This document shows, piece by piece, positions 20,520-30,091 of a DNA stretch of 38,744 nt. The DNA comes from a virus. The stretch is from positions 1 through 38,744 of the IMG/VR virus record IMGVR_UViG_3300018422_000006, one strand, 5' to 3'. Position numbers and translations under genes: made by a program. The first letter of the stretch is position 1; every line of letters begins with the position of its first letter. Below the pieces are notes generated by a model that was given only the letters and a program-made list of their open reading frames with translations, searched no databases and was not told the origin of the DNA.

Positions 20520-21518
20520 TTAGGTTTTGAATTCCAGCGCAAGTAGCTTGCAGACTTGGCCTTGCATCGGAAAAATCTCAAACCACGTTTTCGCGTGTTC
20601 CGCCGTCGCTCCGACGATTTCCAAGTACTCCGCTTCCAAAACGCGTGGGCTGTTGCCGGCCTCCCGGCTGACCAAACCGAGGTCGTTGCTGACGATCGCG
20701 TGATAGGTGCTGCCTGAGTTTCTCAGTGCGTTGCGTTTCCACTTAAGGCCTACCGATGCGGCGAGACGGCGCAATTCTCGGTGGATATTGCTGGAAGTAA
20801 CGATCCTTCCCGAGAGTTTTCCGTAGGGCCGGATCCATTCGATCAGATTCATTGGCATGACGATCTTGCGAACGCGTCGGGTCTTGGCTTGCTTACGGCG
20901 GATGACGATAGTGCCTTCGTCGAAACGAACTTGCTCCCAATCCAATTGGAGGAGCTCGGAGGTGCGCACCTTGGCAAAAGCGCCGATGGCCAGATAGGGG
21001 ACCAGCCGGGGCCAGTCCGATGATGCCTTGACCAACAACTCACGCATTTGGTCAGGCTTCCAAATTTCATTGTCCGATTGCTCGACGATCGATTTGCTGA
21101 TGATGAACTCGGCCTTGGTGTAATGCTTCACGCGGCGGCACCAAGTGAGGAAGTTCATGACGGCGTTGTGGTAATTGTTGCGCGTCCTGTTGCTCCACTC
21201 CAATTGCCCGAGCCAGATGTCGACCTGCGGGACAGTCAGCGCATCGATGCGACAGGTGAAGGCGGCCCGGAAAGGTTTCAATCGTGACGCCAAATCGTGG
21301 TGATGGCGCTCGCCCACTCCCCGTCTTTTTTCCCAAATGAGAAACTCTGAAACCGCGGCATCGACAGTCGGCACGTTCTGAAGGTGCATGGCCACAGCTT
21401 GGTGGGCTGCTGCCTCGAGCAGCACAAGGTCTCCTTTCACAATTCCGTACAGTCTGGAAAAGACATAGATCGCGACTTCCGCCGAGACGCCCGCGGGTAA
21501 ATCAGTGACGTGATTCAC
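20520..21518 (-). CDS. Tyrosine recombinase, second of a tandem pair
   Basis: A 332-residue tyrosine-family recombinase. The catalytic set is visible: Arg185 (AFAKVRTSELL), Lys212 (KQAKTRRVR), the second box ALRNS with Arg266 (usually LRHS), AGNS near 287-290, and the nucleophile Tyr298 (LEAEYLEIV). The N-terminal 130 residues form a SAM-like core-binding domain. GTG start at 21518, 29 bases after the first recombinase ends. The unusual Asn replacing the second-box His and the GNS replacing GHS follow the same style as the neighbour, suggesting duplication within a lineage followed by divergence. Which of the two acts on attP is unknown. Confidence 0.88.
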   Translation of the reverse strand: MNHVTDLPAGVSAEVAIYVFSRLYGIVKGDLVLLEAAAHQAVAMHLQNVPTVDAAVSEFLIWEKRRGVGERHHHDLASRLKPFRAAFTCRIDALTVPQVDIWLGQLEWSNRTRNNYHNAVMNFLTWCRRVKHYTKAEFIISKSIVEQSDNEIWKPDQMRELLVKASSDWPRLVPYLAIGAFAKVRTSELLQLDWEQVRFDEGTIVIRRKQAKTRRVRKIVMPMNLIEWIRPYGKLSGRIVTSSNIHRELRRLAASVGLKWKRNALRNSGSTYHAIVSNDLGLVSREAGNSPRVLEAEYLEIVGATAEHAKTWFEIFPMQGQVCKLLALEFKT

Positions 21519-21547: not shown

Positions 21548-22438
21548 CTACAAGAGGAACCCTTGCAAACTTTCGGGAGCATAAGTTTTGCATGGGGAAT
21601 TTTTCAAATCTTTCGGAAAGATCGACCAGAAAACCGATGCGCGCTCTCGAGGAACCAATTCTCGATAGTGACGCAAAAGAATTCCAGCACTGTTCCCGAG
21701 CTCATGCGCGATCTTTCCCGCGTCCTGCCACTCGGCCAGCCAATAACTCGCGCACGTGTGGCGCAAGATGTCCTGCGGCCATTTGCGCAGTCGAAGGTAC
21801 TCTCGGAGCCGTCTGAGAAAGCGTCGCCGACGTTGATGCTTCATCGGCAATGCCCCTGCGAGTTCTTTGGCGTGCCGAAGCCAGGCGATGGCGCTGGGCA
21901 TCGGTTTCACGATTCGTCGTTGCCGTACCTTCGAGACGACCGCATCGATGCGAATGAACCCATTTACTAAATCGATGTCGGCCCACGTGATCTGCTCGCT
22001 CTCTTCTGGCCGCAATCCGCACAGCAGTCCAAGCACGATGATCCCAAGCGCATCAGGCCGATGGCGGCGGGTCCAAACCAGGATTCTCATGCACTGGCGC
22101 ACGGTGAAGATCTGAGGCGAGCGGTGATCGATCCGAGGTCTCTCCAGGAACTCACATGGATTTTCCTGAATCCATTTATGCCGACGGCAATGAGTGAACA
22201 GTGCAGAGAGCCTACCGATGTTACTTCGCTGGGTCGTGGGCTTCTCGCGCCTGGCAACGAACCAATTCTCGACGACGAACAGATCGATGCTTGCGACTGG
22301 ATCAGACTCACGACCACGGATGAAGAGTGTTAGATACTGCCGCAACCCGCGAATGTAATTCACTCGATAGTTTGCACGCTCTTTTGAGGCAAGAACGGAA
22401 GAGACAGCTTCGCCGAGGGTGACCATCGAAGTATGCAT
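21548..22438 (-). CDS. int: Tyrosine recombinase (integrase), first of a tandem pair
   Basis: A 296-residue recombinase. Catalytic residues are Arg143 (CGLRPEES), Lys170 (VSKVRQRR), Arg226 in ILRHTCASYWL, Asn249 in LGNS where His is usual, and Tyr258 in LLRHYRELV. The C-terminal sequence HYRELVPRERASVFWSIFP matches the ending style of many integrases from Verrucomicrobia and Planctomycetes. It starts 64 bases from the tRNA-Ala fragment at 22502-22539 and reads in the same direction, the usual arrangement of int next to attP. The HxxR histidine position appears changed (DILR). Likely the main integrase. Confidence 0.9.
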   Translation of the reverse strand: MHTSMVTLGEAVSSVLASKERANYRVNYIRGLRQYLTLFIRGRESDPVASIDLFVVENWFVARREKPTTQRSNIGRLSALFTHCRRHKWIQENPCEFLERPRIDHRSPQIFTVRQCMRILVWTRRHRPDALGIIVLGLLCGLRPEESEQITWADIDLVNGFIRIDAVVSKVRQRRIVKPMPSAIAWLRHAKELAGALPMKHQRRRRFLRRLREYLRLRKWPQDILRHTCASYWLAEWQDAGKIAHELGNSAGILLRHYRELVPRERASVFWSIFPKDLKNSPCKTYAPESLQGFLL

Positions 22439-22934: not shown

Positions 22935-23129
22935 ATGACATTAATACGTTCCATGAGCCACAAGATGGAACGCGGCCGTAAGAATCGGACTGCCAGGGTA
23001 AACTTCAGACTTACCGCAAAGGACTTCGATCGACTAAAGGAGACCGCGTGGAGGAACCGAAAAACAGTTTCGGATTTTGCACGCGGTCAAATCCTCGAAG
23101 CGCTTTCATCCAAACGTAAAGCAGCATGA
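22935..23129 (+). CDS. Small basic ribbon-helix-helix-like protein
   Basis: A 64-residue protein. The part ARVNFRLTAKDFDRLKETAWRNRKTVSDFARGQILEAL has the RHH pattern of strand, helix and helix, with many basic residues (RGRKNRTARV near the N-terminus). ATG start at 22935 lies in the operator dyad; a later ATG at 22953 is possible. The stop overlaps the ParB-like start as ATGA. It is the first gene of the plus-strand early operon and likely binds DNA, perhaps as a Cro-like regulator or a replication accessory. Confidence 0.75.
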   Translation: MTLIRSMSHKMERGRKNRTARVNFRLTAKDFDRLKETAWRNRKTVSDFARGQILEALSSKRKAA

Positions 23130-23827
23130 CCTTCGGGACATCCCGCATCGTTGCGCTCGATGAGGTCGTTGTGGACCAAACGATCCAAGTCCGGGCAATC
23201 CTCCGCGAGGACATCGTTGCGGAGTATTGTGAGCGACTCCAGGCGGGGGATGCTTTTCCACCAATTGTTGCGTTTGTCAGCAACGATAGTCCCTCGCTGC
23301 TGTTGGCCGACGGCTGGCATCGACTGCTCGCTTTCAAAATGGCGGGCCGGCGCGAGATCCACTGCGACGTCAGACAAGGGGACAAGACGGAAGCTCTGAA
23401 ATTTGCCCTACGGGCAAACATGAGTCATGGCATCCGGCGCACGCATGAGGACAAGCGAAAGTGTGTTCAGCTGGCGCTAAGCGAATTTCCCGAAGTAAGC
23501 GACCGCGGCATTGCCCTGATGTGTGCAGTGTCACACCCTTTTGTCGCCAAGTGTCGCCTTTCGCTACTGCAGCGCAGCCCCGTGATTCCAGCCGCTCAGT
23601 TGGAAACGTTGCCAGGTGACCCAGTCGAGACGCCGCCACAAGTGGAAACGTTACCAGGTGATGCCGTCGGAACGCCTCCCCCAGTGGAAACGTTTCCAGT
23701 GGTTGAGCCCAAAACGCGAAGGGAACTGCTGAGCCGTCAACTGTTGAGTCGTCTCCGGCAACTTTGGGAGGTGGCCGACCGAACAGAGCGAAACCAGTTT
23801 CTGACTTGGGCTCAAAGCCAACTGTGA
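23126..23827 (+). CDS. ParB-like protein with embedded 42-bp-spaced DNA sites
   Basis: A 233-residue protein. Residues about 15-100 form a ParB/Srx N-terminal domain: VDQTIQVRAILREDIVAEYCERLQAGDAFPPIVAF, then ADGWHRLLAFKMAGRREIHCDVRQG, and ALKFALRANMSHGIRRTHEDKR. A helix-turn-helix follows (about 125-145, EVSDRGIALMCAVSHPFVAKCR). The region about 157-198 is three repeats of a 14-residue unit starting VETLPGD. The C-terminus is helical. The DNA beneath the repeats carries three GGAAACGTTNCC sites exactly 42 bases apart. The gene may autoregulate or have a partition/replication role. Its stop overlaps the next gene as GTGA. Confidence 0.82.
   Translation: MTFGTSRIVALDEVVVDQTIQVRAILREDIVAEYCERLQAGDAFPPIVAFVSNDSPSLLLADGWHRLLAFKMAGRREIHCDVRQGDKTEALKFALRANMSHGIRRTHEDKRKCVQLALSEFPEVSDRGIALMCAVSHPFVAKCRLSLLQRSPVIPAAQLETLPGDPVETPPQVETLPGDAVGTPPPVETFPVVEPKTRRELLSRQLLSRLRQLWEVADRTERNQFLTWAQSQL
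23602..23697. repeat. Three GGAAACGTTNCC sites at 42-bp spacing
   Basis: Sites at 23602-23613 (GGAAACGTTGCC), 23644-23655 (GGAAACGTTACC) and 23686-23697 (GGAAACGTTTCC, perfect palindrome) start exactly 42 bases apart, four turns of B-DNA. All lie in the coding region of the ParB-like gene. A fourth inverted copy is at 20400-20414 outside any gene. This looks like an operator or iteron array. Confidence 0.8.
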
Positions 23828-25205: not shown

Positions 25206-26324
25206 ATGTTCGACCAACTCGATGCTCTGGTCCGGCACTTTTTGGAGGAATTCCATTTCACTACCCGGGAGCTCAGGATTCTAAAATTCATCCTGAGAAG
25301 GTCCTACCAGATGGGAAAGGAGGCCTGTTTGATAACCAAGTGGGAGGATATGTACGACGAGACGAAAATAACCAAAGGTAATGTCTCGAAGTTTGTTGCG
25401 GGCTTGGTCAGGAAGGGCGTCCTTGTTAGAGATGAGATTGTTAGCGACAAGTGGATTGTTCTTCGTATTCTTGCTGACCCACGAGGATGGAAAGTATCAC
25501 CGATAAGAGACTGGAACACTCCTGGGATCGCCGAGCGGCAAATGGCATTGCAAGCGATGAACGAGCGCGGCGTTCAAGAAGAATTATTTGCGCGTCACCC
25601 TGAGCTAAACGACGCGAGGGTGGCAGTGGGCATAGAGGGGCTTTTACAATATGCAGAATCGCTAGGATTGCGAAAATCGTCCTCAACCGGTCGACCGGCT
25701 GGGGGTTCGGTTCCCGAATCGGGAACGAATCGATGGAACACACCCAACGAGGGTGCGAGACAAGCCAACGAGGCTTCGAAAACGGTCGTTCCCGATTCGG
25801 GAACCATTCCTTCGAGCGATGTGCGATTGGTTCCCACTTTGGGAACCAATGGAACGATCCAGGTTCCCGAACTGGGAACCAACCGACCGAATACGCTCAA
25901 CGAGAGCGTAAAACAACCAGAAACGATGGTTCCCACTTCGGGAACCTACCATTCGAAAAGTGCCGAGGTTCCCACTTCGGGAACCGCCGTATACGCGCGC
26001 GACGTTCAGTTAAACGTTAAGAACGTAATTTCTGAAGAACGTAAAACGTGTACAGAACGTAGTGTTAGTACGTTCAACGTGGAGCGGAAAGCCCACTTGA
26101 CCGAAAGGCTGAAGGACCTCCTGGATGAATCAGAACTTCACGGGATCAAGTGGGTTCGTTGGGAGAAAGTCATCGAGACGCGCCCCACACTTTTGGACGA
26201 GAAATTATCGTTGCTCAAAGCCCGGCTTATTCAGCCCGTCCCAGGCCATGAAATACGCAACGCCGCGGCGTTCCTATGGTCAGAGATGAAGCGCGCAATC
26301 CTTGCTAAGAGGCGCGACGCATAA
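25206..26324 (+). CDS. Replication initiator, lambda O-like, with origin iterons in the gene
   Basis: A 372-residue protein. The N-terminal 110 residues form a winged-helix domain (TTRELRILKFILRRSYQ, then a DETKITKGNVSKFVAGLVRKGVLVRDE recognition region), as in lambda O and RepA-like initiators. The middle (about 165-265) is low-complexity and contains six VPxxGT motifs because the DNA carries six GTTCCC-N5-GGGAAC dyads. The C-terminal third is basic/helical and probably contacts the helicase loader or helicase. A strong AAGGAG lies before the ATG. No helicase or helicase loader gene is recognised nearby, so host proteins are probably recruited. Confidence 0.85.
   Translation: MFDQLDALVRHFLEEFHFTTRELRILKFILRRSYQMGKEACLITKWEDMYDETKITKGNVSKFVAGLVRKGVLVRDEIVSDKWIVLRILADPRGWKVSPIRDWNTPGIAERQMALQAMNERGVQEELFARHPELNDARVAVGIEGLLQYAESLGLRKSSSTGRPAGGSVPESGTNRWNTPNEGARQANEASKTVVPDSGTIPSSDVRLVPTLGTNGTIQVPELGTNRPNTLNESVKQPETMVPTSGTYHSKSAEVPTSGTAVYARDVQLNVKNVISEERKTCTERSVSTFNVERKAHLTERLKDLLDESELHGIKWVRWEKVIETRPTLLDEKLSLLKARLIQPVPGHEIRNAAAFLWSEMKRAILAKRRDA
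25710..25984. other. Iteron cluster in the initiator gene, putative origin
   Basis: Six 17-bp dyads GTTCCC-N5-GGGAAC lie at 25710-25726, 25788-25804, 25830-25846, 25863-25879, 25929-25945 and 25968-25984. Spacings are 78, 42, 33, 66 and 39 bases, multiples of three. The first two are perfect through 8 bp arms. The arrangement matches lambda, whose O gene contains its own iterons. Origin function is inferred. Confidence 0.82.
26001..26081. other. AACGT-rich stretch next to the iterons, candidate unwinding region
   Basis: Within 81 bases AACGT or its complement occurs eight times. This stretch is richer in A/T than the flanking coding sequence and follows immediately after the sixth dyad. It encodes the end of the low-complexity segment and the start of the C-terminal domain. 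In lambda a similar AT-rich tract next to the iterons is where DNA first melts. That role is inference here. Confidence 0.55.
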
Positions 26325-29458: not shown

Positions 29459-30091
29459 TCAGAGCTGGTAGAGGTAGATGGCCTCCATCGTATTTTTCGC
29501 CCCGCACTTGTGGCGCGCGGTTTCAGCGTGCTGTTTGACGGTCTCTTCGGATATGCCCAGGGCTCCTGCAATTTCCTTGGCTGCATAACCCAGTTTCAGC
29601 GAGCCCAGGATGCGTCGTTCCCGGGCGGTTAAGGAGGGGAGGGGCTCAGCGAGCCGCTCGAAGATAAACCGGTAGAGCCTGCTATCCAGGTAATAGCCGC
29701 ACCCGTTAATGACCTCGTGCATCGCGGTGGCGAAATCCTCTCCCGCGTTGGCAGCGACAGGCCCCTTAAGCATGTAACCGCTGATTCCCTCGCGCAGACA
29801 ATCGCGGAGGTCTCTGGCCAGGGCCGAACCCGTCCAAATCATGATCCGCAACCGGGGCCATGTCTTTCGCAGGGTGCGGATCAGTTCCGGTCCGCACAGA
29901 GCAGGCAGGCCTAAGTCGACCAGGAGAACGTCAATTTGGTAGGGGTCGCAGTTGGCCAGGCACTGCTCGCCCGAATCGAAGATGGGGCCAGCTATGAGCT
30001 CAAGGGACGTCTTGCCAGACCCGCGGCGGCACATCTCCGCAAACATCGCCTGATCGGTCTTGTCATCGTCGATCAGCGCGAGAGTTGCCAT
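29459..30091 (-). CDS. Orphan response regulator, NarL/FixJ type
   Basis: A 210-residue two-domain protein. The receiver has the acidic pocket IDDD (Asp8-10), the phosphoacceptor Asp59 in LLVDLGLP, Thr87 in IWTGSA and Lys109 in YMLKGP. The output domain (about 152-205) is LuxR-type: LTARERRILGSLKLGYAAKEIAGALGISEETVKQHAETARHKCGA. All key residues are intact, so it should be phosphorylatable. No histidine kinase lies in the window, so it must be served by host kinases or act without phosphorylation. It lies within the late operon after the holin-like genes. This is an unusual cargo for a phage. Confidence 0.9.
   Translation of the reverse strand: MATLALIDDDKTDQAMFAEMCRRGSGKTSLELIAGPIFDSGEQCLANCDPYQIDVLLVDLGLPALCGPELIRTLRKTWPRLRIMIWTGSALARDLRDCLREGISGYMLKGPVAANAGEDFATAMHEVINGCGYYLDSRLYRFIFERLAEPLPSLTARERRILGSLKLGYAAKEIAGALGISEETVKQHAETARHKCGAKNTMEAIYLYQL

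Follow-up and report, generated by a model that had tools for sequence, protein, structure and literature searches.

Lambda O has served as a model initiator for decades, and four iterons are annotated inside its gene. Searches of the open-access literature returned no account of the array described here, of a recognition code, or of how O proteins choose their iterons, and no sequence relative of lambda O was found among solved structures. One report describes the O proteins of lambda and of the Stx phages as dimers that bind iterons in vitro, and the origins of the Stx phages P27 and 933W as containing six iterons (PMC7466680). Here we analysed a viral record of 38,744 bases (IMG/VR record IMGVR_UViG_3300018422_000006, hereafter the window) in which a replication initiator gene contains six copies of an inverted repeat.

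Lambda O with ori-lambda and the initiator gene of the window share a Phage_rep_O domain, inverted-repeat iterons located within the gene after the DNA-binding domain, and adjoining AT-rich DNA (PMC7466680). They differ in the sites themselves. The 6-5-6 core of the lambda iteron is TCCCTC-AAAAC-GAGGGA whereas the half-site of the window is GTTCCC. In lambda, four 18-bp iterons are annotated at distances of 20-24 bp, compared with six sites 33-78 bp apart in the window. Lambda also has a P gene, whereas none was recognised among the ORFs scanned in the window. The origins of P27 and 933W match the window in having six iterons, but the Stx iterons are of the lambda type and only four of them were strongly bound in vitro (PMC7466680). 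Also comparable are the Paenibacillus-type Rep_O genes (L041, L123 and those of the phages Jimmer1 and GBK2), which likewise carry 17-bp dyad arrays in the gene after the winged helix. L041 and L123 have the GTTCCC half-site of the window, in contrast to GTTAC in Jimmer1 and GTTGGT in GBK2. The winged-helix domain of L041 is ~16% identical to that of the window, the C-terminal domains of L041 and L123 are DnaB_2-like, and L041 is followed downstream by a DnaB helicase gene. The origin arrangement itself is of the known lambda-O kind; what the window adds is a proposed recognition code that can be tested.

The dyad array and its codons

The window was scanned for GTTCCC-N5-GGGAAC. Six exact copies (0 mismatches) were found where the original prediction had placed them, at 25710-25984, all within the initiator reading frame (Table 1). 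There were no further exact matches in the record outside the initiator gene, and the reversed control pattern had no match in all 38,744 bases. When the codon order of the initiator gene was shuffled, the mean number of sites was 0.095 and the maximum was 1, with up to two mismatches allowed. Together with the codon-usage test described below, the exact sites and the shuffles demonstrate that the six-dyad array is real and far above chance expectation. The start-to-start spacings are 78, 42, 33, 66 and 39 bp, which are multiples of 3 and not regularly of 10.5, so no helical phasing was apparent. Six copies had been noted as more than the four iterons of lambda. The number is nevertheless not exceptional, because P27 and 933W also have six and relatives have up to about 11 (counting sites with up to three mismatches).

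Table 1. Positions of the initiator gene, its predicted domains, the dyads and flanking elements in the window.
Feature	Coordinates	Strand	Sequence or basis
Rep_O-like replication initiator gene, 372 aa, ATG start	25206..26324	+	PF04492 match
Predicted winged-helix DNA-binding domain, aa 1-90	25206..25475	+	AF2 model
Predicted recognition helix, aa 57-69 (K57, G58, N59 at its start)	25374..25412	+	AF2 model
Predicted disordered linker, about aa 156-282, holds 6/6 dyads	25671..26051	+	AF2 model
Dyad 1	25710..25726	.	GTTCCCGAATCGGGAAC
Dyad 2	25788..25804	.	GTTCCCGATTCGGGAAC
Dyad 3	25830..25846	.	GTTCCCACTTTGGGAAC
Dyad 4	25863..25879	.	GTTCCCGAACTGGGAAC
Dyad 5	25929..25945	.	GTTCCCACTTCGGGAAC
Dyad 6	25968..25984	.	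GTTCCCACTTCGGGAAC
Six clustered hexamers (GAACGT / ACGTTC / AACGTT) within and beside the AT-rich block	26002..26075	.	
AT-rich block, candidate DNA-unwinding element	26008..26067	.	67% AT
Predicted C-terminal helical domain, aa 279-371	26040..26318	+	AF2 model

The dyads lie 500-780 bp into the gene and correspond to aa 169-260 of the initiator. From 5' to 3' they encode VPESGT, VPDSGT, VPTLGT, VPELGT, VPTSGT and VPTSGT, and all six copies are in frame 0, as would be the case if the array were a VPxxGT repeat maintained at the protein level with the DNA palindrome as a by-product. Yet all six are written with the codons GTT, CCC and GGA, for which the chance under peptide-only selection is ~6e-12, using the codon usage of the window itself. 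In relatives the same DNA dyad is translated as VPxxGT, SxxGN or FPxRE, depending on the frame. Exact dyads in 23 Rep_O genes were distributed over frame 0 (46), frame 1 (21) and frame 2 (9), and more than one reading frame was used in 18 of the 21 genes with two or more exact sites. Since relatives read the dyad in all three frames, selection acts on the DNA, and a peptide repeat is an extremely improbable explanation of the array. The earlier proposal that the DNA dictates VPxxGT holds in principle, with the correction that this peptide is forced in frame 0 only.

Domains of the initiator and the DNA beside the array

The 372-aa product matched PF04492 (Phage_rep_O, lambda O) with an E-value of 1.2e-7 and a score of 32.6 bits, above the Pfam cut-off of 28.7. 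An HMM built from 93 Rep_O genes lacking the GTTCCC dyad also matched it (E=4.6e-7). Matches to PHROG families were weak (DnaD-like helicase loader, 4e-4; O-like, 0.068), and the sequence of the winged helix is divergent. The AlphaFold2 model has block-mean pLDDT values of 82-96 over aa 1-100. Foldseek returned weak matches to the winged helix, the best being to a MarR-type winged helix-turn-helix (E=3.7e-3), and the Rep-DNA complex 5kbj was also listed, weakly, at E=0.013. The pLDDT falls below 50 over aa 156-256, 259-275 and 277-282, and the six VPxxGT copies lie within this predicted disordered linker, in keeping with the low-complexity segment that had been described from the sequence. The modelled order, with the winged helix ahead of the array as in lambda O, likewise agrees with the original prediction. 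From residue 291 onward the block-mean pLDDT is 82-97. The C-terminal domain is common to window-like relatives, which have one invariant W and an RNxxxW-like end, and it is presumed to contact the helicase or its loader. A profile comparison with the DnaB_2-type domain found in the Bacillota relatives showed no similarity.

The AT-rich block begins 23 bp 3' of the last dyad. It ranks second among all 60-mers of the window, for which the mean AT content is 43% and the 99th percentile is 58%. The AT content of the gene peaks about 40-45 bp beyond the array in many relatives, which is what an unwinding element would predict; in some the peak is upstream of the array or inside it. No DnaA boxes were found by the strict consensus. 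GC skew, which had been proposed as a check, showed no switch at the array and so provided no origin signal.

Occurrence of arrays in Rep_O genes and of dyads elsewhere

A second gene set was assembled without regard to the dyad, on the basis of Pfam family membership or of similarity at the protein level. In a de novo search, most of these Rep_O genes, lambda included, carry palindrome arrays after the winged-helix domain, so that the suggested comparison with related phages revealed the same in-gene layout in most of the genes fetched. The commonest optimum was 17 bp (6-5-6), in 25 of the 53 genes that scored above their own shuffles, a small control of 20 shuffles per gene. A spacer of 7 was optimal in a further 12 of the 53, often representing the identical site in another register. 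Some Rep_O genes had no array detectable by this search. The half-sites are lineage-specific and include GTTCCC, GTTGGT (Geobacillus phage GBK2), GTTAC (Brevibacillus phage Jimmer1), GTTAGT, CTTCTT, GACACC and TCCCTC (lambda). In HK97 and ST104 a DnaB-like gene directly follows the O gene. A further O protein (L190), from a genome assigned to the same order as Paenibacillus oryzae, is identical to that of phage lambda over 299 aa; this gene is probably lambda DNA contaminating an assembly.

We also searched for the dyad itself. Four scans found dyad pairs in 24 viral contigs and a scrambled dyad pair in none. In 17 of the 24 the pair lies inside a Rep_O-like ORF, as called with an HMM trained partly on those same loci; such ORFs make up only 8% of all the DNA fetched. 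Most GTTCCC relatives still match the independent HMM from the 93 genes, with L009 (E 0.03) and L005 (E 0.2) being marginal and L120 being missed. Close relatives of the initiator were found neither in a protein-based search of viral contigs nor by tblastn against named phages, and alignments of mixed composition proved too diverse for scanning.

Among 99 stretches from a dyad scan of bacterial genomes, a Rep_O gene was present in one only, L041 (Paenibacillus roseus). Most of the bacterial dyad pairs belong to repeats, either tandem or dispersed, or resemble operators, which means that the dyad by itself is not diagnostic. No Rep_O gene turned up when 14 genomes with GTTCCC pairs outside viruses were searched, and these pairs therefore look like other systems. 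At the Prevotella-type, Myxococcales and Victivallaceae MAG loci (L019-L117), the dyad forms tandem repeats of 22 bp, pairs with a distance of 52/63 bp and further pairs, and no Rep_O gene was detected there.

The repetition of the dyad in these three groups of genomes is what would be expected if it were a palindromic repeat of the selfish or dispersed kind, or formed mRNA hairpins. The window record, however, has the dyad in the initiator gene only, and relatives have other half-sites at the same place that track the recognition helix, which makes such an origin of the array very unlikely.

In Pseudomonas and Stenotrophomonas (L053, L058 and L065) the dyad pairs are 48-52 bp apart around promoter-like sequence and resemble repressor-operator arrangements. 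Other proteins may thus use such sites as operators, and by the same token the O-like protein on its dyads might serve above all to control the early operon, as a roadblock to transcription or by autoregulation, with replication starting elsewhere. Against this, the sites of the window lie well inside the gene, an AT-rich block is next to them, and the family prototype initiates replication from this position. Position and AT-rich flank together argue against the roadblock, which we regard as improbable, if somewhat less so than the other alternatives.

Collectively, the PF04492 match, the domain order, the array within the linker, the AT-rich block and the layout in relatives support the original prediction of an in-gene origin in the style of lambda O. 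Adding the computed DNA constraint, the occurrence across the family and the co-variation described below, we consider it likely, with considerable confidence, that this is a lambda-O-type initiator gene containing its own origin.

Co-variation of the recognition helix and the half-site

Many Rep_O genes contain the sites that their own products would target, so that pairs of protein and site can be taken directly from sequence. We selected genes whose half-site is of the NTT type and tested their merged half-site consensus against every one of the 111 columns of the winged-helix alignment, using 47 non-redundant genes (identity below 85%). The half-site register was picked by hand, nine genes with spurious-looking arrays were set aside, and the ranking was over all columns. 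The best predictor of half-site position 1 was the first position of the helix, p1 (K57 in the window; z 8.3, with the next column at 2.7). For position 4 the best predictor was p2 (G58; z 5.6), and for position 5 it was p3 (N59; z 8.0). At a 70% identity cut, p1 and p3 still ranked first and p2 third; at 60% (23 genes), p1 alone still ranked first. The pairs KNH/GTTCCC, KNN/GTTCTT, KTH/GTTACT and KTN/GTTATT form a two-by-two set of examples, and KSD/GTTGGT is a further one.

We repeated the test on a tree constructed by parsimony after removal of the three helix columns. The pairings of p3 with position 5 (p 1.6e-4) and of p2 with position 4 (p 6.5e-3) each ranked first, and that of p1 with position 1 ranked third (0.01). 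This tree-aware support is moderate, because each position underwent only 6-10 base changes. The results suggest that the three helix residues track which DNA letters the sites contain. There are exceptions. The window and its nearest relatives combine KGN with GTTCCC, whereas in Bacillota genes an N at p3 is paired with T at position 5; this departure from the rule that N reads T indicates that the code depends on context. IQD genes violate the corresponding D-to-G rule.

A broader reading, about as likely as not, is that the Rep_O family is a large set of self-contained initiator-plus-origin genes in which the code is simple and in part modular, the three helix residues setting positions 1, 4 and 5. 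If it is true, the protein sequence would predict the origin, and one could explain how lambda-type initiators attain their specificity. The co-variation of helix and site reduces the question of recognition to a few point-mutation binding tests.

The same co-variation bears on a further explanation. The ORF at 23126-23827 (+), which lies 1.4 kb upstream of the initiator, encodes a ParB-like protein (phrog_1033, E=7e-10), and the dyads could be its parS-like partition sites. This is very improbable, since the half-site bases co-vary with the recognition helix of the initiator itself, the dyads lie within the initiator gene across relatives of many lineages, and integrase genes are also present in the window. 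Co-variation combined with the use of three frames argues against ParB sites, a peptide repeat and a selfish repeat alike.

The preferred reading is that the initiator protein very probably binds the six dyads to start copying. Each 17-bp dyad would be bound by the N-terminal winged helix, probably in dimeric form, and K57, G58 and N59 in the recognition helix would contribute to reading the half-site. With several dimers bound across the six sites, the DNA may be wrapped or distorted, upon which the AT-rich block immediately 3' of the array would open. The C-terminal domain would then bring in the replicative helicase, directly or via a loader. By analogy with lambda we infer that dimers bind, that the DNA unwinds, that the helicase is recruited and that replication begins at the array; the helicase step is the least certain part. 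No DnaB-, DnaC- or P-like genes were recognised among the window ORFs scanned, which are part of all its ORFs in a record that may be a fragment. Elsewhere in the window, two adjacent ORFs at 20520-21518 (-) and 21548-22438 (-) have weak to moderate Phage_integrase matches, and an ORF at 29459-30091 (-) has sigma-factor-like PHROG matches in its C-terminal part.
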